21,469 bases of DNA. Source: a virus. A program made the position numbers and the translations under genes. Positions 334 to 20,560 of this stretch are shown here, in pieces (positions within the stretch are counted from its first letter, which is position 1; each line of letters opens with the position of its first letter). The stretch is from positions 1-21,469 of the IMG/VR virus record IMGVR_UViG_3300048011_000679, one strand, 5' to 3'. Below the pieces are notes generated by a model. That model searched no databases. It had not been told where the DNA came from and saw only the letters and a list, made by a program, of their open reading frames with translations.

Positions 334-352
334 GGGGGCTGAGGCCCCCTTA
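334..352 (+). terminator. GC-rich hairpin, terminator-like
   Basis: The stem is GGGGGC (334-339) paired with GCCCCC (344-349) around a TGAG tetraloop, followed by only two T residues and then AATT. The stem is very stable for such AT-rich DNA, but the U-tract is short. It sits in the 37-base gap between two genes. It may be an intrinsic terminator, a leaky attenuator or an RNA-stabilising 3' end. Confidence 0.6.
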
Positions 353-364
353 ATTCACAATCAC

Positions 365-1516
365 ATGAAAGTAAATCAAAATCTCATCAGAGTAATGAAT
401 GTACAAACACATTCATATGAAACACAACGAATGCAAAGGTTCATAAAAAAAGAACTTGCAAAACAAAACCTTGGTCATACAAAAGACAAGTATGGAAATA
501 TATATGTGACCAAAGGTGACGCAGACTTATATCCAACAATGGTATGTCACATTGATACAGTACACGCAATAAACAATGATGTACAAGTTGTACAACTTGA
601 TGACGTACTACTAGCTATCGACACTAAAACAAAAAAACGTTATGGTATTGGTGGTGACGACAAAGTAGGTGTATACATTACTCTTGAACTACTAAAACAA
701 TTTGACAACTTCAAAGCAGTATTCTTTCTTGACGAAGAAGTTGGTTGTGTAGGTTCAAGCAAAGCAGACTTCACATTCTTCAATGACAGTACTATTGTAT
801 TAGAATGTGACAGACGTGGATACAATGACTTTGTAACAAGTATAAGTGGTACAAAACTATCAAACGATAAACTTCACAATGACATTGATTACATACTTGA
901 CAAATACAATCGTAAAAAATGTATTGGTGGTATAACAGATGTTGGTGAAATTGCGGACAACAATCCTGTACAAGTAGCTAACATGTCTTGTGGTTACTAC
1001 GACCCACATTCAGACAACGAATACATTGTCATATCCGAAGTAGAATCAACAAAACAAATGTGTTTGGAAATACTACAAGAAACAGCTGACAAAAGATATG
1101 AAATAGATTTGGACAAAAGAACAACTTATGGTGTTGGATATGGTGGCTACAATGCATACTCAGCTAGAAGTTGGGGCTATGACTACTATGACGATTGGGA
1201 CAACAAACCAAAACACAAAACAAAAAACGAAGCATTACACAATACATATGCAGACTCATTCAAAACAACAGCTGAATGCCCATGTTGTAATGCAAGTGAA
1301 GTATGGTTTGACGATTACGAACAACAGTTCTTCTGCTTATCATGCCACACATATGTAGAAATCGATGACAATAATGTAAACATTGATGCTGAGTATATGT
1401 CTACAATCACAGATGAAGAATATATAGAAACAGACACACTTCTATATGACGCAAGCTTCAACCAAGAAGCATTTAAAAAAGATGTTGAACCTAAATTATT
1501 AAACAATGGTATATAG
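365..1516 (+). CDS. M20/M28/M42-type zinc peptidase-like protein with C-terminal zinc ribbon
   Basis: With the ATG at 365 the product has 383 residues; the longer open frame from 299 would have to translate the hairpin at 334-349. Residues 55-220 carry a full set of co-catalytic metallopeptidase positions in the right order: H62 and D64 (CHIDTVH), the bridging Asp in GGDDK (97-100), the Glu pair E124-E125 (FLDEEVG), D149 (LECD) and H215 (DPHSD). The GGDDKVGV stretch resembles the GADDKAG motif of peptidase T-like M20 enzymes. A Tyr/Gly-rich linker follows, then a zinc ribbon with C305/C308 and C324/C327. An aminopeptidase or deacylase reaction on peptides or acylated amino acids is the family expectation; the substrate is unknown. 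No signal peptide is seen, so it should act in the cytoplasm. It overlaps the next gene by 11 bases. Confidence 0.8.
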   Translation: MKVNQNLIRVMNVQTHSYETQRMQRFIKKELAKQNLGHTKDKYGNIYVTKGDADLYPTMVCHIDTVHAINNDVQVVQLDDVLLAIDTKTKKRYGIGGDDKVGVYITLELLKQFDNFKAVFFLDEEVGCVGSSKADFTFFNDSTIVLECDRRGYNDFVTSISGTKLSNDKLHNDIDYILDKYNRKKCIGGITDVGEIADNNPVQVANMSCGYYDPHSDNEYIVISEVESTKQMCLEILQETADKRYEIDLDKRTTYGVGYGGYNAYSARSWGYDYYDDWDNKPKHKTKNEALHNTYADSFKTTAECPCCNASEVWFDDYEQQFFCLSCHTYVEIDDNNVNIDAEYMSTITDEEYIETDTLLYDASFNQEAFKKDVEPKLLNNGI

Positions 1517-3143
1517 ATATAGCGTAAAAACAGATGACGTAATAAATTTTATGCAACAATATGATGGGTCACTTCCGAAAAATCATATGCAGGGAACATA
1601 CGACAGCAGTGATTTTGAATATGTAATCAGAGATAATTTCAACATGTCAAGCTTTAGTTATAAAAGACTAATTGTAAAACTAAAACAAGAAAAAATTATT
1701 CATGTACAAAAATACAAACGAGATGGATATGGAATGTACATGTCACATTGGTTAGACAATAAAAAGCTTTTAGAAAAGTACGGTATAAATGTATATACAA
1801 GAAATGAAAATAACATAACGAACAAAGTTGTGTCACACAGTCTTGCAGAAAATCTAATAGGCTTTGCTGATAACATGCAGAGTGATGACAAACACTTATG
1901 GCAAATTGCTTGTAACACTATATACAGAAAAGCTGTAAACGACAAACACGATAGACATTTCACAATCAACAATAAAGGTGCTATGACATATACACCTATT
2001 GGAAGAATGACAGCTACTACAGAAGATAAAGAACGTTGGTTATCAGACAAGAAATATCGAAGTGATATAAAATTTGGAAAAGGTTTACGCAAAATATTTA
2101 AACACCAAAACATCAAAATACCTGATAATATTATTGAGTTTTTTGCGAATAAACTAAAAGGTATGTATACGTTTCAAGGTAAAATTACAGTAGTAAGCGG
2201 TAGTTATATACGTGATTGGTATAATGGTAATATTTACGCAAAATACAATACAGAATCACTAGGAAATTCTTGTATGCGTCATGATAGCTGTCAAAATTAC
2301 TTTGACATATATACAGAAAACGATGACAAAGTAAAAATGATAATAGCGCTTGATGATGAAAATATGCTGATTGGAAGAGCTATACTATGGAACACAGACA
2401 GTCATGGGCTATTTTGTGATAGAATATACGGTAAACAAATGACTATAGAAGCAATAAAATCATACGCTAAAAAACTTGGTGCATATACAAAATATGAACA
2501 AAGTTACAGTAACACAACACTTGTTTCTCCAACAGGTGAAGCAGACAAAAACGAAATCACAATCACACTAAACACAGGTGGATTTGAATACTATCCGTAC
2601 ATGGATACATTAAAATACTCAGATGATATTTCAAACGACGATGAAATTGTATTAAGCTCAGAAAACGGTGACTATTGTCTTGAATCAACAGACGGTGGAC
2701 CAAATGACGACTATGTAACGCTAGAAAACGGTGACCGAATACACGAAGATGAAGCAAATTACATTGATAGGTATAGTGAGTGGTATCATAGTGAAGATTG
2801 CGTATACAGTGAATACCATGGTGAACATATTATATACGACCGTGCAATATCAATCAATGGTGGAAACGACTACGCATGGGACGACTGCGATGATTTTAAA
2901 TTTGTTGAAGAAGAAGAAGAATACTACCACTATGAAGATGTTGTATGGTCAGAATATCATACAGAATATCTACATAATTATGACGAATGTGTAATACACG
3001 GAATTATAAGTGTCCGTCAATCAAATGAAATAGTAGTAAATGGTACAAATTTAACTTGTCACATAAACGTTACAATTGAAGAGTTACTAGAAAATGAAAT
3101 AATAACTGAAGAAGAATATGAAAATCATGTAACAAATGGGTAA
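1506..3143 (+). CDS. Large conserved-type phage protein with Tyr/acid-rich C-terminal repeats
   Basis: The product has 545 residues. The N-terminal part (about 1-200) is basic and looks helical. Around residues 210-330 there is a segment with the order GSYIRDWYNG, LGNSCMRHDSC, then a beta-rich stretch (MIIALDDENMLIGRAILWN) and DRIYG; I associate this pattern with uncharacterised phage proteins but know no activity for it. The C-terminal third is very acidic and Tyr-rich, with two related repeats near residues 424-448 (DCVYSEYHGEHI) and 474-496 (DVVWSEYHTEYL). No membrane segment is present. It overlaps the peptidase-like gene by 11 bases and the small membrane gene by 8 bases, so the three are probably co-transcribed. 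Function unknown. Confidence 0.85.
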   Translation: MVYRYSVKTDDVINFMQQYDGSLPKNHMQGTYDSSDFEYVIRDNFNMSSFSYKRLIVKLKQEKIIHVQKYKRDGYGMYMSHWLDNKKLLEKYGINVYTRNENNITNKVVSHSLAENLIGFADNMQSDDKHLWQIACNTIYRKAVNDKHDRHFTINNKGAMTYTPIGRMTATTEDKERWLSDKKYRSDIKFGKGLRKIFKHQNIKIPDNIIEFFANKLKGMYTFQGKITVVSGSYIRDWYNGNIYAKYNTESLGNSCMRHDSCQNYFDIYTENDDKVKMIIALDDENMLIGRAILWNTDSHGLFCDRIYGKQMTIEAIKSYAKKLGAYTKYEQSYSNTTLVSPTGEADKNEITITLNTGGFEYYPYMDTLKYSDDISNDDEIVLSSENGDYCLESTDGGPNDDYVTLENGDRIHEDEANYIDRYSEWYHSEDCVYSEYHGEHIIYDRAISINGGNDYAWDDCDDFKFVEEEEEYYHYEDVVWSEYHTEYLHNYDECVIHGIISVRQSNEIVVNGTNLTCHINVTIEELLENEIITEEEYENHVTNG

Positions 3144-3243
3144 AAAATGGAATAAAATACAAAATATAATTGACAGAATACTAACAACAATCTTTTGGAT
3201 TATAGTAATCTTAGTAATTATACTTTCATGTAGAAAACCGTAA
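3136..3243 (+). CDS. 35-residue single-pass membrane peptide
   Basis: The ATG at 3136 overlaps the end of the 545-residue gene by 8 bases. The peptide has a basic, amphipathic N-terminus (MGKKWNKIQNIIDRI), one strongly hydrophobic segment (residues 19-30) and ends SCRKP. The Ser-Cys after a hydrophobic stretch recalls Bacteroidota lipoprotein signals, but only four residues would remain after cleavage, so a simple transmembrane peptide is more likely. The gene sits directly before a strong terminator, as expected for the last gene of an operon. It is too short to judge by codon statistics; the support is its position, overlap and composition. Function unknown. Confidence 0.55.
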   Translation: MGKKWNKIQNIIDRILTTIFWIIVILVIILSCRKP

Positions 3244-3249
3244 GGTTAT

Positions 3250-3291
3250 AAGGGTGATATGGTACTTGTACTGTTATCATCCTTTTTTTTT
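3250..3291 (+). terminator. Intrinsic terminator
   Basis: AAGGGTGATA (3250-3259) pairs with TATCATCCTT (3274-3283) with one G-T wobble, and the loop contains a further GTAC/GTAC self-complementary core. The 3' arm runs straight into nine T residues (3283-3291). It begins seven bases after the stop codon of the 35-residue gene and closes the unit 365-3243. Confidence 0.9.
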
Positions 3292-3319
3292 AAAAAGATT
3301 ATCACAATCATTACAAACC

Positions 3320-3383
3320 ATGCGACATGCGACGACTAAATGTGATGCGACATGCGACGTAATGTGATGCGACGCGACGCGAA
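3320..3383. repeat. GCGAC repeat cluster in control region (iteron- or operator-like)
   Basis: The gene-free stretch 3292-3472 holds a GC-rich cluster in AT-rich surroundings. ATGCGACATGCGACG occurs perfectly at 3320-3334 and 3345-3359, and AATGTGATGCGAC at 3339-3351 and 3361-3373. The core GCGAC appears six times (3322, 3329, 3347, 3354, 3369, 3374), plus GCGAA at 3379. The ATCACA at 3301-3306 is the inverse of TGTGAT at 3341 and 3363. An AT-rich tract follows directly (3384-3472). Such clusters usually bind a repressor or a replication initiator; which one cannot be told from sequence. Confidence 0.75.
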
Positions 3384-3472: not shown

Positions 3473-3721
3473 ATGACAAAAGACTATCTACACTCAGACT
3501 TGTTACAAGACAAGGCAAACGACAGAGTATTTCAAAAAACTTATGGAACAATAGATAAGTTTGCACGAAAGCTAACAAACATGGAAGTCGCCGCTTTTGG
3601 CATCAAAGATGCCGATACAATAGCGACTATGGAAAAAGTAAACGCTGAAATCTTTTCAGAAGAAATTATCGAACTTGTAAATTACACAATACAACACTTT
3701 AGAAAAAACAAAAGATTATGA
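3473..3721 (+). CDS. Small protein of unknown function (82 aa)
   Basis: The gene starts after an A/T-rich leader of the kind used for Bacteroidota translation starts, and is the first gene after the control region. The product is soluble and mixed-charge, predicted largely helical (for example TYGTIDKFARKLTNMEVAAF), with no recognised motif. Its stop overlaps the next start as ATGA (3718-3721), which indicates translational coupling to the lipoprotein gene. Being first behind a likely operator, it is in the position of an early gene; a regulatory role is possible but nothing in the sequence shows a DNA-binding fold. Confidence 0.75.
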   Translation: MTKDYLHSDLLQDKANDRVFQKTYGTIDKFARKLTNMEVAAFGIKDADTIATMEKVNAEIFSEEIIELVNYTIQHFRKNKRL

Positions 3722-4008
3722 AAAAAGAAAGCACATATCGAACAACTTTCTATTCTATGGTTGGGGTAATAATTATGCTGTTGTTTTTGATAATGACATC
3801 ATGTGCGACACTCATTAGAACAGAACAAACTAAGTTTTATTATCCGACATACAAACAATGGAAGTCGCTTAATAAACACGAGATGAAAATTGTAAACGAT
3901 TTTACATTTAAAAACAACTATATCGCACCCGAATATAGACATTTGAAAACAATTAAATTTAATAAATATGGCAGGAAACAACTCGCAGAAATCTACCTTG
4001 CTAGATAG
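3718..4008 (+). CDS. Small lipoprotein-like envelope protein
   Basis: The product has 96 residues. The N-terminus is basic (MKKESTYR), followed by a hydrophobic stretch (about 12-26) ending MTSC with Cys29. This fits a signal-peptidase II lipoprotein signal as seen in Bacteroidota, where Ser-Cys endings are common, although Met rather than Leu occupies the -3 position. The mature part (about 68 residues) is basic and Tyr-rich with no recognised domain. Lipoproteins encoded by phages can act in superinfection exclusion or lysis; neither is shown here. It is coupled to the upstream gene by ATGA and overlaps the next gene by 41 bases. Confidence 0.7.
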   Translation: MKKESTYRTTFYSMVGVIIMLLFLIMTSCATLIRTEQTKFYYPTYKQWKSLNKHEMKIVNDFTFKNNYIAPEYRHLKTIKFNKYGRKQLAEIYLAR

Positions 4009-13684: not shown

Positions 13685-14126
13685 GAAAGGAAGACAGATA
13701 ACTCGGTCTAAAAAAACAAAAATAGACGGAATACAGTTTCAATCGAAGTTGGAGTCTCACATGTACCTATTGCTCAAAGCCAACAAAATACCTGCTGGAT
13801 ACGAGACGCAAAAGTTCACAATCATCGAGGGATTTGAAGCAAACTTTTCTTCATACGAAAAAACACCAACTAAAAAATACTTACACGACAGAGGTCACAA
13901 AAAAATATTACCCATAACATATACCCCAGACTTTGTGGACCTACAAAACCCACCAAGATACATTATAGAATGCAAGGGAAATCCAAATGAACGTTTTCCT
14001 ATGGTATGGAAGCTTTTCAAGCGATATATAATGCTAAAAGGATGGAAAACAGACTTATTCGTTCCCAGAAACCAAAAGGATTGTCAAGAGGTAATTAATA
14101 TTATAAAAGAAAAATATTACTCTTGA
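13671..14126 (+). CDS. PD-(D/E)XK endonuclease, DUF1064/T7 endonuclease I-like
   Basis: The product has 151 residues. A basic N-terminus (RRYKKGRQITRSKKTK) precedes the catalytic elements: E28 in QSKLES, D87 in YTPDF, and E100-x-K102 in IIECKG, followed by NERFPMVWKLFK. This is the complete PD-(D/E)XK set with spacing like phage structure-specific nucleases. It could resolve branched intermediates or trim DNA for packaging. The last 10 bases overlap the oppositely directed 2147-residue gene, so it is the last gene of the rightward block. Confidence 0.8.
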   Translation: MRRYKKGRQITRSKKTKIDGIQFQSKLESHMYLLLKANKIPAGYETQKFTIIEGFEANFSSYEKTPTKKYLHDRGHKKILPITYTPDFVDLQNPPRYIIECKGNPNERFPMVWKLFKRYIMLKGWKTDLFVPRNQKDCQEVINIIKEKYYS

Positions 14127-17100
14127 TTTTCTGTCATCATTGGGTCTGGCTTAGCTCCAACAGTAAACTCTTTCTGTAAAGCTCTTTCGAGGTAGTTTGC
14201 AAACTTATTCAAATCTCCTTTTGGAGCACCAGGAATAAGCAATGTTGCGCTCCTCAAGTTATATAGCATTTCTATACTTGCTTTAACTTGTTCACTTTTA
14301 GTAATACTCTTGCCACCACCAATATACTGCTCTTGTGTCCCATATTCACCTGCAGATACCTTTTGTACATGCTGGTCTTTCAAATATGCAACCTCAACAA
14401 ATTTATTGAACTGCTCAAAGCCTATTCCAACAAGACCCAAAAGATTTGAAGCAATTAAAGCTCTTCTTCCTTCTTTTGTATCTATTTTTTCAAGGTCTGA
14501 ACTTATAAATTCAGTAAAAACATCGTCATCGAAAAATTTATTCAAACCATAAAAAAGAACATCGTCCATTCCTTCAGTAAATGGAATAGGAGAAGTTGTT
14601 GTAAAAACATCTTGCATTGTTGGTGCAACTATCCCGTATGTTTGTCCAGCCTGAAATTTATTTTCGTATTCCCTAGCGTATTTATCTATAAAATAAGCCG
14701 CTTTCTCTAAAGAAACGCCTTTAACATTCATTTTAGCAGCTATAAACTCAGCTTCTTTAGTTCTTTTTTGGTTTACAGGAAGCATTTCATTCATTAAATC
14801 TTGATATTCCTGGTCAAGACCTATTAAATCATCAAAAACTCCTGGTCTATCCTCAATAGGAAGTATGTCTGACCCTAATAATTGGGTATAACCACCCTCT
14901 CTTTTTATATCTTCTTCTTCTAGTCCAAAACCAAATATACCTGGAGCAAATCCTTTTAGTTGAGCCATAGCAAACCCAAGTTTTATAGCTTGAAAAGATG
15001 CAACTTCTTGAACTATACCTTGCATAGCGGCTCTGGCTTCTTTCTTTTGTGATTCAGGTATAGTTGGGTCGTTAACTATAGCGTATTGATTTGCAAAATT
15101 AGCTCTTGCGTTCGATACAAACTTCTGGAAAGGAAACAACATCCTCACTAAAGTTTGTTTTGATGGAGAGCTTCCGTCGTATATTCCAGCCTCACCCAGT
15201 TTTCCTGTCTGTCTCATTGTTTGAGCAACCATAGCGTCAGCTTTGTTGATAGCATCTATATTTGGGTTTTCGTTTTCTTTTGCCCACCAATCCTTCATGC
15301 TTTTTACATCATCAAAATTAACTCCTTGACGCTCTCTTTCTTGTATATAATGAGATTCAAAAGCTAAGTTTGCTGCAGCTTGGTCGGTAGAACCTAAAAA
15401 TAAATCTAAAGAACGCTCAGACCCCTTACTAATAAAATCTAAAACAGAATTTATTGTGGTCTTTGCGCCCAATGCTTGGATTATTTTACCATCCTCATCT
15501 TTTATCTTTAATGCGTCTAGAATGTATTGTGATGGAACTTCTGTATTGTCTCCTAAAGCAAACTCCGCCTTTAATGAGTTACGCATTCCAGTTCTAGATT
15601 TGTTATATATATTACTAAGGTCTCCTGTGCCAATTAGGCTTTTTTGAAAAAACGCACCTACTTTATTTCTAGATTTAGCTCCGTTCAAAGCTCCAGATAA
15701 ACCAACAACATAGGCACGACTTCCTTTGTTTAAATGTCTTTTAGCAGCATTTGATTTTATGTATGGTGCTGTACCAGTAACAGCACTTACAAACTGAGTA
15801 GACCTCTGACTGACTCTAGCCAAAGAAACAGCAGATATAAAACTATACGCTGCATTAGAAGACTTTTGGAGGGTAGTTTTGTAGTTATCAGAACCAACAT
15901 CAACGAAAACTTCGCTGTTGCCGTTTACAACGTCGTTAAAAACTTTGTTTTGACCTTGAAAATATCTAGCAATAACATCATAGTCTTGTGTGTTTTTAAA
16001 TAGGCTTTTAAATGTTTTATTTTCAAGTAAATATTGAAGCGTAACCATGTCTTTACGAGCATCAATGTCCATTTTAGCACCTCTCATTTGAGTAAAAGCG
16101 TTTTTAGCAAACATACCAGGATTCAATCTTACTCCATCCGCACCTAACGATTCTACAAAAGATATTTCATTTAGGTTTGATGCATCAGTTATAGCAGATG
16201 GTTGGAAAAACCCCTTAACATCATCAATTACCTGTTTAACCACAGTGCGTTCTTCGTGACCAGCTTTTTTGGTTAGTGGTACAGGAACATATGTTCCGTC
16301 TACAAAAGGCTGTTGTGTACCCCGCTCTTTGTTTTCAATTGACCCTCCAAAGTCTGTTATTCTTTGTAGCGCATCTTTCCCTGGTTGCATTGCAGCCAAC
16401 TCATTAACAAAATCTACGTTGAAAGACTGAGCTTTTGAAGATATGTCATCAAAGCTTTTTGCGTCTTTGAATCCAAGGTTGTTATATGCCTCTTCCCAAT
16501 ATAAAAGTCTTTGTTTGAACTTTTCTTTACTGGTTCCTTCGGCTTTTTCAAAATCTGCTCGCCTTAATTCAAGCTCTTGAGTAACTAAGCTCTTCCATCT
16601 AGAAAATTCTAAGTCTACACCGTCTTTATTTGTTACACCAGATTTTCTTAAAGCTCCAGCCAACATATAAAGCTCATATGAGTTTTCTACTTCATTAGCG
16701 TTGTCAGAGTATTTTTTACCGCTGATTGCAGTAGATTTGTTGTATGCTTGAACCTTAGATTTGTATTTTTTAAGAGCTTCATCGTAAAGTCTATTTGTAT
16801 CGCCTTCAGCAACATTAACCTTTCGAACCATATCTCTGTACAACTCATAAAACTCACTACCTTTTTCGGAATCTCTAAACAAAGTTTTTAAAAGTATGTC
16901 TCCTGTACCAAACCCAGCTTTTGCTGTAACAAGTTTCTGTGCCAAAGCGTTTAGACTTTGATAGGACAATCCACTTGTTGCAAATATGTCGATTTGCTCG
17001 GGTGTCTTAGATTTTATCTGAGTAGCTATTTCTTGAGCATTCATAATCGCTTCAACCTGACCAAACATTGGGTTTTTACCCTTGTCCAAATCATCAAAAA

Positions 17101-20100
17101 ACCTAACTATATGTTTAGCTTGTTCTTTGGGCAGCATACTCATCAAGTCTGCTTTTCCGTTGAAAGCTTCTATTCTGGTTATAATCTCGTTAACCCTTTC
17201 TGGGTTTGTGGATTCATCTAGTGTTTGTTGTGGAGCTTCTGTTTGCTGGTCTCCATCTAGCTCTAAAGTGCCCTGAACAGGCTGAGCCTCTCTCTTAGAC
17301 TTGGAGCGCTTTATAGCGTCGCTCAAAACAAAGTTTTCAAAATCTTGCTCATCAACATCCACATATAGTATTGATGGGTCAAATGCCGTATAACCCGCAG
17401 CTGGTACAAATTGCTCTTGGTCTTTTGTCTTTTTGTCTTTTAAATCTTGTAGATATAATTGAGACGCTCTTTCTTCAATCTGTTCATTTGTAATCTCAAA
17501 ATCTGTCTCACCACGAGCCTCTGCTTCATCTTGTAGTTCTTTGGAAGCCCTGTCATCGTACTTAAGCTTAGCGTTTTGTGCAATAAAGTTGTAGCTTAAC
17601 TCCGAAGGATATTTCGTTAGCATTTGCCTTAAATCCTCCTGGTATTTCTCCATGTTCTTGTAAGCATTCTCTCTGATATCGTTTCTTGTTGGTTGATTGT
17701 ATACAACCTCATCAATAAACGAATTATCTATTGCCTTTCCAGCCTCTTCGTATTTAGTTATGGTTTCAAGAAAGAATGCTTTATCGGCAGGAGTCATTGA
17801 TTTTAATAGCTGGTCTTTTCTTTTTTCGTTAAGTAAAATTTGGTCATTTACCTGTGCTTTAAGCTGAAGAGCTGCTTTAAGCTGTGGGTCATTAGCTCCA
17901 TCTAAACCACTTTGCTCTAATGCTTTTATTTCTGTATCAAGAAGTATTTTTGTTCTATGTAAGTCACCTTCACCAGCAATATTTAAATTATTCTTTATTA
18001 CTTGGTCTGCTACTTTTCTTATGTTTGAGTTTTGTCTATATCTACCAATCTTACTCATAGTAGATGAAGAAAATAACGAAGTGAGACCTGTATCTTTCAT
18101 TAGTTTTGCAGCTCTATCATCATCCCATTCATCTATCCCAAACTGAACATTTATGAAATAGTTAGAAAGCGCAACAAATTCTTCTTCTGGTATTTCCCTT
18201 TTAAGAACCGAAGCATCAATACCTAAAGCTCTTGCTATTTTAGTTCTCACACTAACATTCATTCTTTTGCCATATTGGCTAGCTAGTTCTCTTGCGCTTT
18301 TTACGTTTTTAGCTCCTTTAAAGTTTCTAGCGCCTCTCGTTGCTTTAAAGAAGTTATAGGTGAAAAGTCTAGTTATTGCGACTTCAGAAATAGATTGAGT
18401 AAGCGCAATTCCCCTTGCTTTTTGGTCGCTTATATTTAATATGTTCTTTTGAGTTTCTGTAAGCTCTACCCCATCTTCTAGGTTTTGTTGAGCAGCATCC
18501 TTTAGTTGGTCAATTTCAGTAATAGTTGCGCCAAAAGTAGAGGTTCCTGTAACAGTAAGACCAAAAGCGGGATTCACTGCAAATGCAGCGTAATATGGAA
18601 TTGAGTTAGCCATTGGTTGATTAGCTAAAGCCAACATGTCTCCAAAACTACCAGCGTCAGAAATAGAAACATCATACAAAGGTAATGCACTTTCTTTCAG
18701 TTTCATTATTTCTTCTGGCCTTGGTAATCCACTAGCAATAGGTAGTCCATATGTGCCATGTACGACTCCGTCTGCAACCCACTCTGGAACTCCAACAGAC
18801 TGCATAGATTCCGATAAAGCAACCCCCGTGTTTGCTAATATCTCCATAGAAGACAATCCTAGGCCTTGTATAAAGTCTTCACCCCACTCATAGAATATCT
18901 TACCCTCTGCTCCGCCTCTTGTTTTTGTAGGGGTAGCTTCATTTCTGTCTATTAAAGCTTGAGCGCCTTTTATATAGTCTGCTAAAAGCCCGTAATCATC
19001 TGGGTTGCCTATTTCTATTTTAATGTTACCACGAATGACGTCGTTTCTTCCCGTAGGATTCGTAAGAATATCTTCTAATGTGTTCATTGTAGAAGGCACT
19101 CCATTTATAAGTATTCCGTCAAGAGGCATGTCAGACATCTTAAGTCCAGCTTGACTAATGTTTGTTAGTAGTTCTGCACTTCTCAGGTCTACGTTTTTAT
19201 AACTACCAGACATAGCCATTGCGCTACCAATGAGTTTTGAGGAGGTTTCTCTTTTTGATTTAAGAGTATTGAGCATATTGTCCAGCTCCTTTACTGTCTT
19301 TTGAACTATCTCGCCTCTAGTTATTTCTTGATTGTCCTGGCCAAAAATCTTACTCATATTTTGAGCAGGTGTAGCTATTGCTAGAGCATCTCTTTTTTTA
19401 GATGTTTCATCTCTAAAGAACTGTGATTCGTCAGCGATAAGTTTTTCAGACTTCAACGCTGTTTTAATCTGACCTATAACCCGCTCTAGTTTGTAGGGGT
19501 TGAAAACGCCATCGTCAAAGAAATCGTTTGTGCTAAGTCCAGAAGCTTGAGCTACCATAGTCAACTGCTCTTCTCTAGGAGTAAGCGCATTGAATGATTG
19601 ATTGCTAATATCTGAAACTAAGTTTTGAGACTTGGTAAATATAGAAGCCATGTTGTCTACGGGGCTTCCGCTATTAATTATAAATTGTTTAAACTCATCA
19701 AATCTTCTGTTTAAAAGAGACTCTACCTCTTCATTGGTTTGACCAGATAACTTTAATTGTTTTTGATACCCTATTACATTGTCTGTAAAAAGCCTTACGT
19801 CCATCTTTTGACCCTGTGGCCCTTGTATTGTTATGACGTCTCTGAGGGCTTTGGTCTCTGAAACACTAAATCCATATGGTCTTAAGATTGCTTGTAAAGA
19901 CTTTTTTGCGTCTCTTTCTGATGAAGTGAAAAAATCTTTTGGAATGGAATTTACTACATCCTCTAAGTATTTTTTTTCGTCTAAATAACCACCAACTCCT
20001 TTGATGTTGATTTCGTTCTTCCAAGAATCAAAATCATATTCAGCTATTTCTTGGGTATTTACATACCCAGCTTCCTTAAGCTCGTCCTCCGTTAGAGTTA

Positions 20101-20560
20101 TCGTAGGAGACTCCGATAAAGATATTGTATTTTCCGAAGTGGAGGGAGAATCCGAAGCGTCCTGTACGTTTGGACTTTCTGAAAATTGTTGAGATAAAGT
20201 CTGGTCTAGATTTTTTTTTTCAACGATAGGTTTATCAATCCACGTATTGTAGATTGAGTCAGCCTCTTCTTGAGTAGGCATTTGGTCTGTCAGACCATTG
20301 TATGTGTAAAACTTTCTAATATAGCTTTTAACGTCTGGAAGCTGTGAATAAGCTCTTAAGGTAGCTTCCTTGTATGGCTTGTTATTTGCATCAAGTACAG
20401 ACTTAAAATACTCATACGCTTTCTCTGCTTTTATTGGTGGGTCTGGGTCTGGAGTTCCATTACCCTGATTTACACCATTAACGCTTTCTTGTGAAGTTAA
20501 TTCTTGATTTGAATCAGCTCCTTGTGTTTGCTCTATTGTATTTTCGTTGTTCACAATCAT
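14117..20560 (-). CDS. Giant internal virion / DNA-ejection-type protein (2147 aa)
   Basis: One uninterrupted frame encodes 2147 residues. The N-terminus (1-150) is low-complexity, rich in Gln, Ser, Asn and Glu. Most of the rest is helical and polar, with long charged stretches (about 830-1150). A moderately hydrophobic Gly/Ala-rich patch lies near 645-680 (SIPYYAAFAVNPAFGLTVTG) and an amphipathic one near 715-750 (RGIALTQSISEVAITRLF). This combination is usual in very large phage internal or polyvalent proteins ejected with the DNA. No lysozyme, transglycosylase, polymerase or protease motif was seen by eye. It is the last gene of a leftward transcript and is coupled to the upstream gene by ATGA (20557-20560). 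The virion role is inferred from size, composition and context. Confidence 0.75.
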   Translation of the reverse strand: MIVNNENTIEQTQGADSNQELTSQESVNGVNQGNGTPDPDPPIKAEKAYEYFKSVLDANNKPYKEATLRAYSQLPDVKSYIRKFYTYNGLTDQMPTQEEADSIYNTWIDKPIVEKKNLDQTLSQQFSESPNVQDASDSPSTSENTISLSESPTITLTEDELKEAGYVNTQEIAEYDFDSWKNEINIKGVGGYLDEKKYLEDVVNSIPKDFFTSSERDAKKSLQAILRPYGFSVSETKALRDVITIQGPQGQKMDVRLFTDNVIGYQKQLKLSGQTNEEVESLLNRRFDEFKQFIINSGSPVDNMASIFTKSQNLVSDISNQSFNALTPREEQLTMVAQASGLSTNDFFDDGVFNPYKLERVIGQIKTALKSEKLIADESQFFRDETSKKRDALAIATPAQNMSKIFGQDNQEITRGEIVQKTVKELDNMLNTLKSKRETSSKLIGSAMAMSGSYKNVDLRSAELLTNISQAGLKMSDMPLDGILINGVPSTMNTLEDILTNPTGRNDVIRGNIKIEIGNPDDYGLLADYIKGAQALIDRNEATPTKTRGGAEGKIFYEWGEDFIQGLGLSSMEILANTGVALSESMQSVGVPEWVADGVVHGTYGLPIASGLPRPEEIMKLKESALPLYDVSISDAGSFGDMLALANQPMANSIPYYAAFAVNPAFGLTVTGTSTFGATITEIDQLKDAAQQNLEDGVELTETQKNILNISDQKARGIALTQSISEVAITRLFTYNFFKATRGARNFKGAKNVKSARELASQYGKRMNVSVRTKIARALGIDASVLKREIPEEEFVALSNYFINVQFGIDEWDDDRAAKLMKDTGLTSLFSSSTMSKIGRYRQNSNIRKVADQVIKNNLNIAGEGDLHRTKILLDTEIKALEQSGLDGANDPQLKAALQLKAQVNDQILLNEKRKDQLLKSMTPADKAFFLETITKYEEAGKAIDNSFIDEVVYNQPTRNDIRENAYKNMEKYQEDLRQMLTKYPSELSYNFIAQNAKLKYDDRASKELQDEAEARGETDFEITNEQIEERASQLYLQDLKDKKTKDQEQFVPAAGYTAFDPSILYVDVDEQDFENFVLSDAIKRSKSKREAQPVQGTLELDGDQQTEAPQQTLDESTNPERVNEIITRIEAFNGKADLMSMLPKEQAKHIVRFFDDLDKGKNPMFGQVEAIMNAQEIATQIKSKTPEQIDIFATSGLSYQSLNALAQKLVTAKAGFGTGDILLKTLFRDSEKGSEFYELYRDMVRKVNVAEGDTNRLYDEALKKYKSKVQAYNKSTAISGKKYSDNANEVENSYELYMLAGALRKSGVTNKDGVDLEFSRWKSLVTQELELRRADFEKAEGTSKEKFKQRLLYWEEAYNNLGFKDAKSFDDISSKAQSFNVDFVNELAAMQPGKDALQRITDFGGSIENKERGTQQPFVDGTYVPVPLTKKAGHEERTVVKQVIDDVKGFFQPSAITDASNLNEISFVESLGADGVRLNPGMFAKNAFTQMRGAKMDIDARKDMVTLQYLLENKTFKSLFKNTQDYDVIARYFQGQNKVFNDVVNGNSEVFVDVGSDNYKTTLQKSSNAAYSFISAVSLARVSQRSTQFVSAVTGTAPYIKSNAAKRHLNKGSRAYVVGLSGALNGAKSRNKVGAFFQKSLIGTGDLSNIYNKSRTGMRNSLKAEFALGDNTEVPSQYILDALKIKDEDGKIIQALGAKTTINSVLDFISKGSERSLDLFLGSTDQAAANLAFESHYIQERERQGVNFDDVKSMKDWWAKENENPNIDAINKADAMVAQTMRQTGKLGEAGIYDGSSPSKQTLVRMLFPFQKFVSNARANFANQYAIVNDPTIPESQKKEARAAMQGIVQEVASFQAIKLGFAMAQLKGFAPGIFGFGLEEEDIKREGGYTQLLGSDILPIEDRPGVFDDLIGLDQEYQDLMNEMLPVNQKRTKEAEFIAAKMNVKGVSLEKAAYFIDKYAREYENKFQAGQTYGIVAPTMQDVFTTTSPIPFTEGMDDVLFYGLNKFFDDDVFTEFISSDLEKIDTKEGRRALIASNLLGLVGIGFEQFNKFVEVAYLKDQHVQKVSAGEYGTQEQYIGGGKSITKSEQVKASIEMLYNLRSATLLIPGAPKGDLNKFANYLERALQKEFTVGAKPDPMMTENQE

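Follow-up and report, generated by a model that had tools for sequence, protein, structure and literature searches.

A zinc peptidase gene and a predicted GNAT-like partner gene form a conserved pair in phages

Two overlapping genes of a virus fragment from IMG/VR (21,469 bases, hereafter the window), g1 for a zinc peptidase-like protein and g2 for a large partner protein, travel together through very different phages despite flips in their order, which points to one shared job, and the two products almost certainly act in one process. The remaining genes of the window form a phage replication set, with an exonuclease VIII-like protein, a DnaA C-terminal domain, a DnaD-like loader, a primase-helicase, a MazG-like protein and a resolvase. 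A sequence-only reading of this DNA had proposed a unit of three overlapping genes at 365-3243, and all three (g1, g2 and g3) were recovered on the plus strand, with overlaps of exactly the 11 and 8 bases that had been claimed (Table 1). The joint function suggested for the three genes is strongly supported for g1 and g2: unrelated phages keep them adjacent, their order has switched four times or more, and their active sites are invariant. It does not extend to g3, which is found in the closest relatives only.

Table 1. Features of the three-gene unit and its flanks, in window coordinates
Feature	Position	Strand	Description
Upstream GC hairpin, terminator-like	334..349	+	GGGGGC-TGAG-GCCCCC; fold -13.4 kcal/mol, z -2.45; weak U tract in the window
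g1	365..1516	+	383 aa; minimal MH-clan (M20/M28/M42-like) zinc peptidase
g1 ligands H62, D64, D98, E124, E125, D149, H215	548..1009	+	invariant in 79/79 non-redundant relatives
g1 C-terminal zinc ribbon C305/C308/C324/C327	1277..1345	+	from sequence
g1/g2 overlap	1506..1516	+	11 bases; identical overlap in six relatives (L100-L104 and L108)
g2	1506..3143	+	545 aa; GNAT-like core between a winged-helix-like N-terminus and a C-terminus of acidic beta-hairpin repeats
g2 GNAT-like core, about residues 220-371	2163..2619	+	motifs SCM (255-257), GRAxxW (290-295), DRIY (305-308), PYMDT (364-368)
g2 acidic Tyr/Ser/His beta-hairpin repeats	2736..3065	+	from AlphaFold2 model and sequence
g3	3136..3243	+	35-aa lipobox membrane micropeptide; lipid-type Cys codon at 3229
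Downstream intrinsic terminator	3250..3292 (hairpin about 3250-3284)	+	fold -13.5 kcal/mol, z -2.96, then T9

The linkage was surveyed in 79 g1-anchored viral loci from IMG/VR. The possibility that the two genes rarely occur together elsewhere did not hold, as g2 was found within 361 bp of g1 in 70 of these loci, nearly always at 60 bp or less or overlapping. Five of the nine loci without g2 lie near contig ends, and the most frequent of the other neighbour families is present in only 20 of the 79 loci. The peptidase comes first in some loci and g2 in others. Both gene trees call for a minimum of four changes of order, compared with about 23 when the labels were shuffled, and the adjacency was retained. 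The distances among g1 proteins correlated with those among g2 proteins (r 0.45, with none of 1000 permutations above 0.21), a correlation that is expected under co-inheritance and is thus weak evidence by itself. No g1-g2 fusion protein was found. A gene family that may encode a GroEL chaperonin, judging from its sequence, lies near the pair in 11 of the 79 loci, including positions 2-946 of locus L100.

The g1 product scored 25.4 bits against the Peptidase_M42 profile (PF05343, cut-off 23.2) and matched the phrog_4191 peptidase with an E-value of 1.7e-55. Several of its relatives exceeded the cut-off of an M20, M28 or M42 profile, and the g1 profile matched PepT and M42 TET aminopeptidase chains in the PDB. 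The full set of metallopeptidase ligands and the C-terminal zinc ribbon that had been noticed in this protein are both there, and a ribbon-like CxxC...Cxx[CH] pattern recurs in 63 of the 79 g1 proteins. The two-zinc ligand set with its Glu base is also kept in distant phage peptidases. From M20 enzymes, we take D98, and not D99, to be the bridging ligand; two Drulisvirus relatives retain D98 and have a Cys at the position of D99. The dN/dS ratio of close g1 pairs is about 0.10, and the intact ligand set suggests that g1 is very probably an active hydrolase.

The catalytic domain and the order of the ligands are common to g1 and the PepT (M20B), M42 TET and M28 aminopeptidases, whereas the C-terminal ribbon is a feature of g1. 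Only 66 residues separate D149 from H215 in g1, where PepT (3gb0) has a long insertion, and the M20 lid/dimerisation domain, located after the third ligand and ahead of the last, was missing from g1 in the alignment with PepT. Similarly, residues 67-165 of MJ0555 (9qr6), which form the PDZ-like insertion of about 100 residues between the first and second ligands of M42 enzymes, have little counterpart in g1. Lacking both the lid and the insertion, g1 amounts to a catalytic domain of minimal MH-clan type, about 245 residues long, followed by a ribbon-bearing tail; a full PepT was ruled out by the ligand spacing. By its sequence, its ligands and the adjoining large hypothetical gene, g1 belongs with the 'putative peptidases' of phrog_4191, KP34 gp11 and PhiM1_10. 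These are known only as annotated peptidases, and the literature searched describes neither their conserved partner nor the pair as a unit.

No family match was obtained for g2 in Pfam, PHROG or NCBIfam, and none to a GNAT model; a comparison of its profile with PDB sequences also found nothing. An AlphaFold2 model of g2 built on 60 sequences reached a mean pLDDT of 90.1, and that of a minimal family member, 309 residues long, reached 94.5. When both models were compared with the PDB by Foldseek and VIA-align, only GNAT-superfamily proteins were found among the matches listed, all of them weak (best E-value 4.3e-3, never reaching 1e-3; best Z 6.9, with an rmsd of 3.3 over 104 aligned residues, and thus below 8). 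The modelled core of g2 probably adopts a GNAT fold. The Q/R-x-x-G-x-G/A acyl-CoA pyrophosphate loop before helix 3 is absent from g2, which has DRIY and variable residues there and no conserved Gly, so that its use of acetyl-CoA is doubtful. In view of the weak fold scores and of this missing motif, g2 is called GNAT-like here and not a proven acetyltransferase.

Eleven g2 residues (Y239, S255, C256, M257, Y269, R291, W295, D305, Y308, P364 and D367) are shared by 78 or all 79 of the pairs, the missing cells being single gaps. M257, R291, W295, D305, Y308, P364 and D367 are present in all 79, and C256 in 78, with one gap. This invariant set makes it rather likely that g2 is catalytic. Close g2 pairs have dN/dS ratios of 0.19-0.29. 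The ends of the protein are exchangeable between members and include winged-helix-like, DnaJ-type zinc and acidic hairpin domains: the winged-helix-like N-terminus is a reading of the predicted secondary structure, the DnaJ-type zinc domain is C-terminal in one huge-phage member, and the two repeats first noticed in the present protein, VYSEYHGEHI (2802-2831) and VWSEYHTEYL (2943-2972), are exact and fall within the predicted beta-hairpin repeat domain.

The pair is present in hundreds of isolated phages, including KP34-like Klebsiella phages, and in some of the largest known phage genomes; its members have so far been annotated merely as 'peptidase' and 'hypothetical protein'. A homologue of g2 directly follows the peptidase in the Cellulophaga phages phi38:1, phi40:1 and Calle_1 (Callevirus). 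In KP34-like and PhiM1-like Autographiviridae, a 'hypothetical protein' of 570-710 aa is encoded directly upstream of the peptidase and was identified as g2 by its motif order (SCM, RAI, RxY, PYxD), by hhalign (E-value 6e-5) and by Foldseek against BFVD. This same order is found in phrog_6980 (KP34 gp10 and KpV475 gp10), which also lies directly upstream of the peptidase and of which the KpV48 protein matched g2 in BFVD with a Foldseek E-value of 1.2e-12, at 13% identity in that alignment. Compared with g2, phrog_6980 has an extended N-terminus and a tail that carries zinc cysteines, and the sequence identity is low. Among Autographiviridae records, g1 and g2 were counted in 230 and 231 from Klebsiella, 42 and 42 from Vibrio, and 10 and 10 from Escherichia phages, respectively, whereas the numbers for Pectobacterium were 51 and 19, a mismatch that is probably due to divergence. 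In each of the eight records inspected, the two genes either adjoin or overlap. In the Thermus phage TSP4, g2 lies 344 bp from a metal-dependent hydrolase matching the g1 profile. The finding is under-described. It joins a known peptidase family to an unnamed partner family, and the conserved adjacency, the repeated order switching and the invariant active sites make the pair a clear, testable unit.

A profile search of genome contigs, with a 12-row alignment, identified g2 followed by g1, with a 4-base overlap, on three contigs from bacteria; two of these belong to named Cysteiniphilum strains. A putative relaxase-like gene lies near the pair on one of these contigs, and the pair is therefore not purely a lytic takeover tool. 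Seven records of more than 250 kb each contain 3-14 g2 and 3-8 g1 genes. In the Enterococcus phage VRE9_3 (L183, 2652-5977), two phrog_18912 genes whose products carry SC-type motifs stand on either side of the peptidase and might represent another diverged partner family. As hhalign gave no link to g2, the VRE9_3 neighbours phrog_18912 and phrog_29713 were not counted as g2 despite their SC motifs.

Published work on relatives bears on the timing. KP34p10 and KP34p11 are both core genes (PMC4411677), and the PhiM1_10 peptidase is among six conserved genes before the primase in PhiM1-like phages (PMC6115819). In KP34-like and PhiM1-like phages alike, the pair belongs to the early region, ahead of the primase, and a role in host takeover is plausible. 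In the infection proteomics of phi38:1, a lysine at position 244 of gp021 ('Peptidase') and an arginine at position 287 of the consecutively numbered gp022 were seen by mass spectrometry (PMC13288928). The g1 homologue of phi38:1 has a lysine at 244 and its g2 homologue an arginine at 287; from this indirect match, made across a numbering that differs between the paper and GenBank, we infer that both proteins are produced during infection.

The families, the conserved residues, the intact metal site and the linkage of the pair are computed results. The reading that we place beside them, with a little less than an even chance of being right, is a two-component phage module in which g2 would modify or bind a substrate that g1 would hydrolyse during early host takeover. 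In such a module, g1 would be an active di-zinc enzyme of minimal MH-clan type, either an exopeptidase or an amidohydrolase. Its partner g2 would be a diverged protein of GNAT fold in which the Cys-Met/Arg/Trp/Asp/Tyr centre is invariant and the binding ends, winged-helix-like and zinc/acidic, can be exchanged. g2 would bind, present or covalently modify a host-derived protein or peptide, presumably by catalysis, and g1 would cut a peptide or amide bond in this shared substrate, with an effect on the host; in the present phage, too, both would act in the early, host-takeover phase. That the substrate is a host protein or peptide targeted in takeover is a tentative proposal. The boldest form of the idea is on the unlikely side: an ancient modify-and-clip (or conjugate-and-release) enzyme pair acting on host proteins, with GNAT-fold chemistry without the usual acetyl-CoA loop, present in phages of Bacteroidota, Proteobacteria and possibly Thermus and Firmicutes, and expanded in huge phages. 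If true, it would provide a self-contained phage route from modification to proteolysis.

A phage GNAT tied to the proteolysis of a host protein, as proposed here for g2, is Rac (LUZ19 gp28) of the phiKMV-like phages, whose action ends in cleavage of the RNA polymerase alpha subunit (PMC7552054). Rac differs from g2 in being a protein of 157 aa with a recognised Acetyltransf_1 domain, and the cleavage is ascribed to host proteases. No profile similarity was found between LUZ19 gp28 and g2, which was therefore rejected as a Rac homologue, and LUZ19 has neither g1 nor g2. The likeness is thus one of how the proteins may work and not of what they are.

Alternatively, g2 might be a non-catalytic adaptor, or the missing lid, that docks on g1 and delivers or gates peptides, its GNAT-like fold being a scaffold. 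The gaps of g1 at the M20 lid and the M42 insertion, the lack of an acetyl-CoA loop in g2 and the variation of its terminal domains are all consistent with an adaptor, but the polar set C/R/D/Y/D, invariant in the 79 pairs, looks catalytic, and many g2 arrays have no adjacent g1. Tandem arrays of 4-7 diverged g2 genes occur on phage contigs (L097, L058, L059, L065 and L080), and on four of these, shorter ones of 26-130 kb (G008, G009, G014 and G015), no g1 was found on the contig itself. Such arrays also weigh against the two-component reading. We regard the adaptor as unlikely.

A role in detoxification or counter-defence appears quite unlikely. The pair would neutralise a small acylated, aminoacylated or peptidyl host toxin or signal, with acyl transfer by g2 and amide hydrolysis by g1. 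The MccE GNAT and the MccF peptidase act as a pair on microcin C and provide a model for such a combination of GNAT and amidase chemistry. The presence of the pair in both phages and bacterial contigs (a mobilisation-type gene accompanies it on one of the latter) and the copy expansion in huge phages would also suit it. However, MccF is a serine peptidase with a different fold, and the pair has no link to known counter-defence islands. Defence interference had been offered as an example of a joint function, but nothing specific spoke for it, and a PADLOC scan for anti-phage defence families gave no credible match.

It is very improbable that the operon simply places an amino-acid-recycling peptidase beside an unconnected gene. 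M20 and M42 peptidases do recycle peptides, but the adjacency survives at least four order switches in many phage lineages while other neighbours change, and this explanation is already largely refuted. That g2 is a Mom-like GNAT modifying DNA or nucleoside bases, with g1 trimming the adduct, is most improbable: the GNAT-like fold and winged-helix-like N-terminus of g2 and the presence of the Mom family in jumbo phages (PMC7824862) would fit, but Mom of phage Mu, although likewise a GNAT fold used by a phage, showed no profile similarity to g2 (E-values 0.26 by hmmsearch and 0.34 by hhalign) and was rejected as a homologue, and the 79-locus neighbour survey revealed no modification genes recurring beside the pair.

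The third product had been described as a 35-residue membrane peptide, which it is, and a lipobox (...IILSC) lies close to its end. In nine close relatives (L099-L102 and L104-L108), g2 is followed by similar, positively charged membrane peptides of 36-45 aa that finish with LSC or FSC plus a few more residues, and L109 has a longer form of 71 aa. The g3 gene was not found in Callevirus and is replaced in L110-L112, so that it was rejected as a part of the core module; it is a genuine gene of the close-relative clade. A second putative small lipoprotein, of 96 aa with a lipobox-like signal (IMTSC), is encoded after g3 at 3718-4008 and has homologues in seven related loci.

The unit had also been described as framed by two hairpin terminators. 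Neither flanking hairpin was called in the window by a consensus terminator scanner, but direct folding showed both; the hairpins are real and the downstream one is a convincing terminator, whereas the upstream U tract is short in the window. The upstream hairpin is kept in L100, L101, L102, L104 and L108 with UUCG or UUAG loops, followed in L108 by a T5 tail, and an equivalent of the terminator downstream of g3 is present in L104.

On the minus strand, opposite to the replication genes, positions 14117-20560 encode a protein of 2147 aa with no PHROG match. Five ATGCGAC iterons lie at 3320-3373, after the g3 terminator and ahead of the following gene (8 copies in the window, against 1.3 expected), and are followed by a conserved AGGTTATTAACAA...TTAGTTAAAAATTA block in the stretch to 3472. 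Three to five copies of the iteron are found at the equivalent intergenic site in L099-L104 and L107, and the region is a candidate origin or regulatory element. The sequence CACAATCAC is located at 356-364, immediately 5' of the g1 start, and occurs four times in the window, against 0.14 expected; in relatives, it stands before the ATGCGAC iterons.
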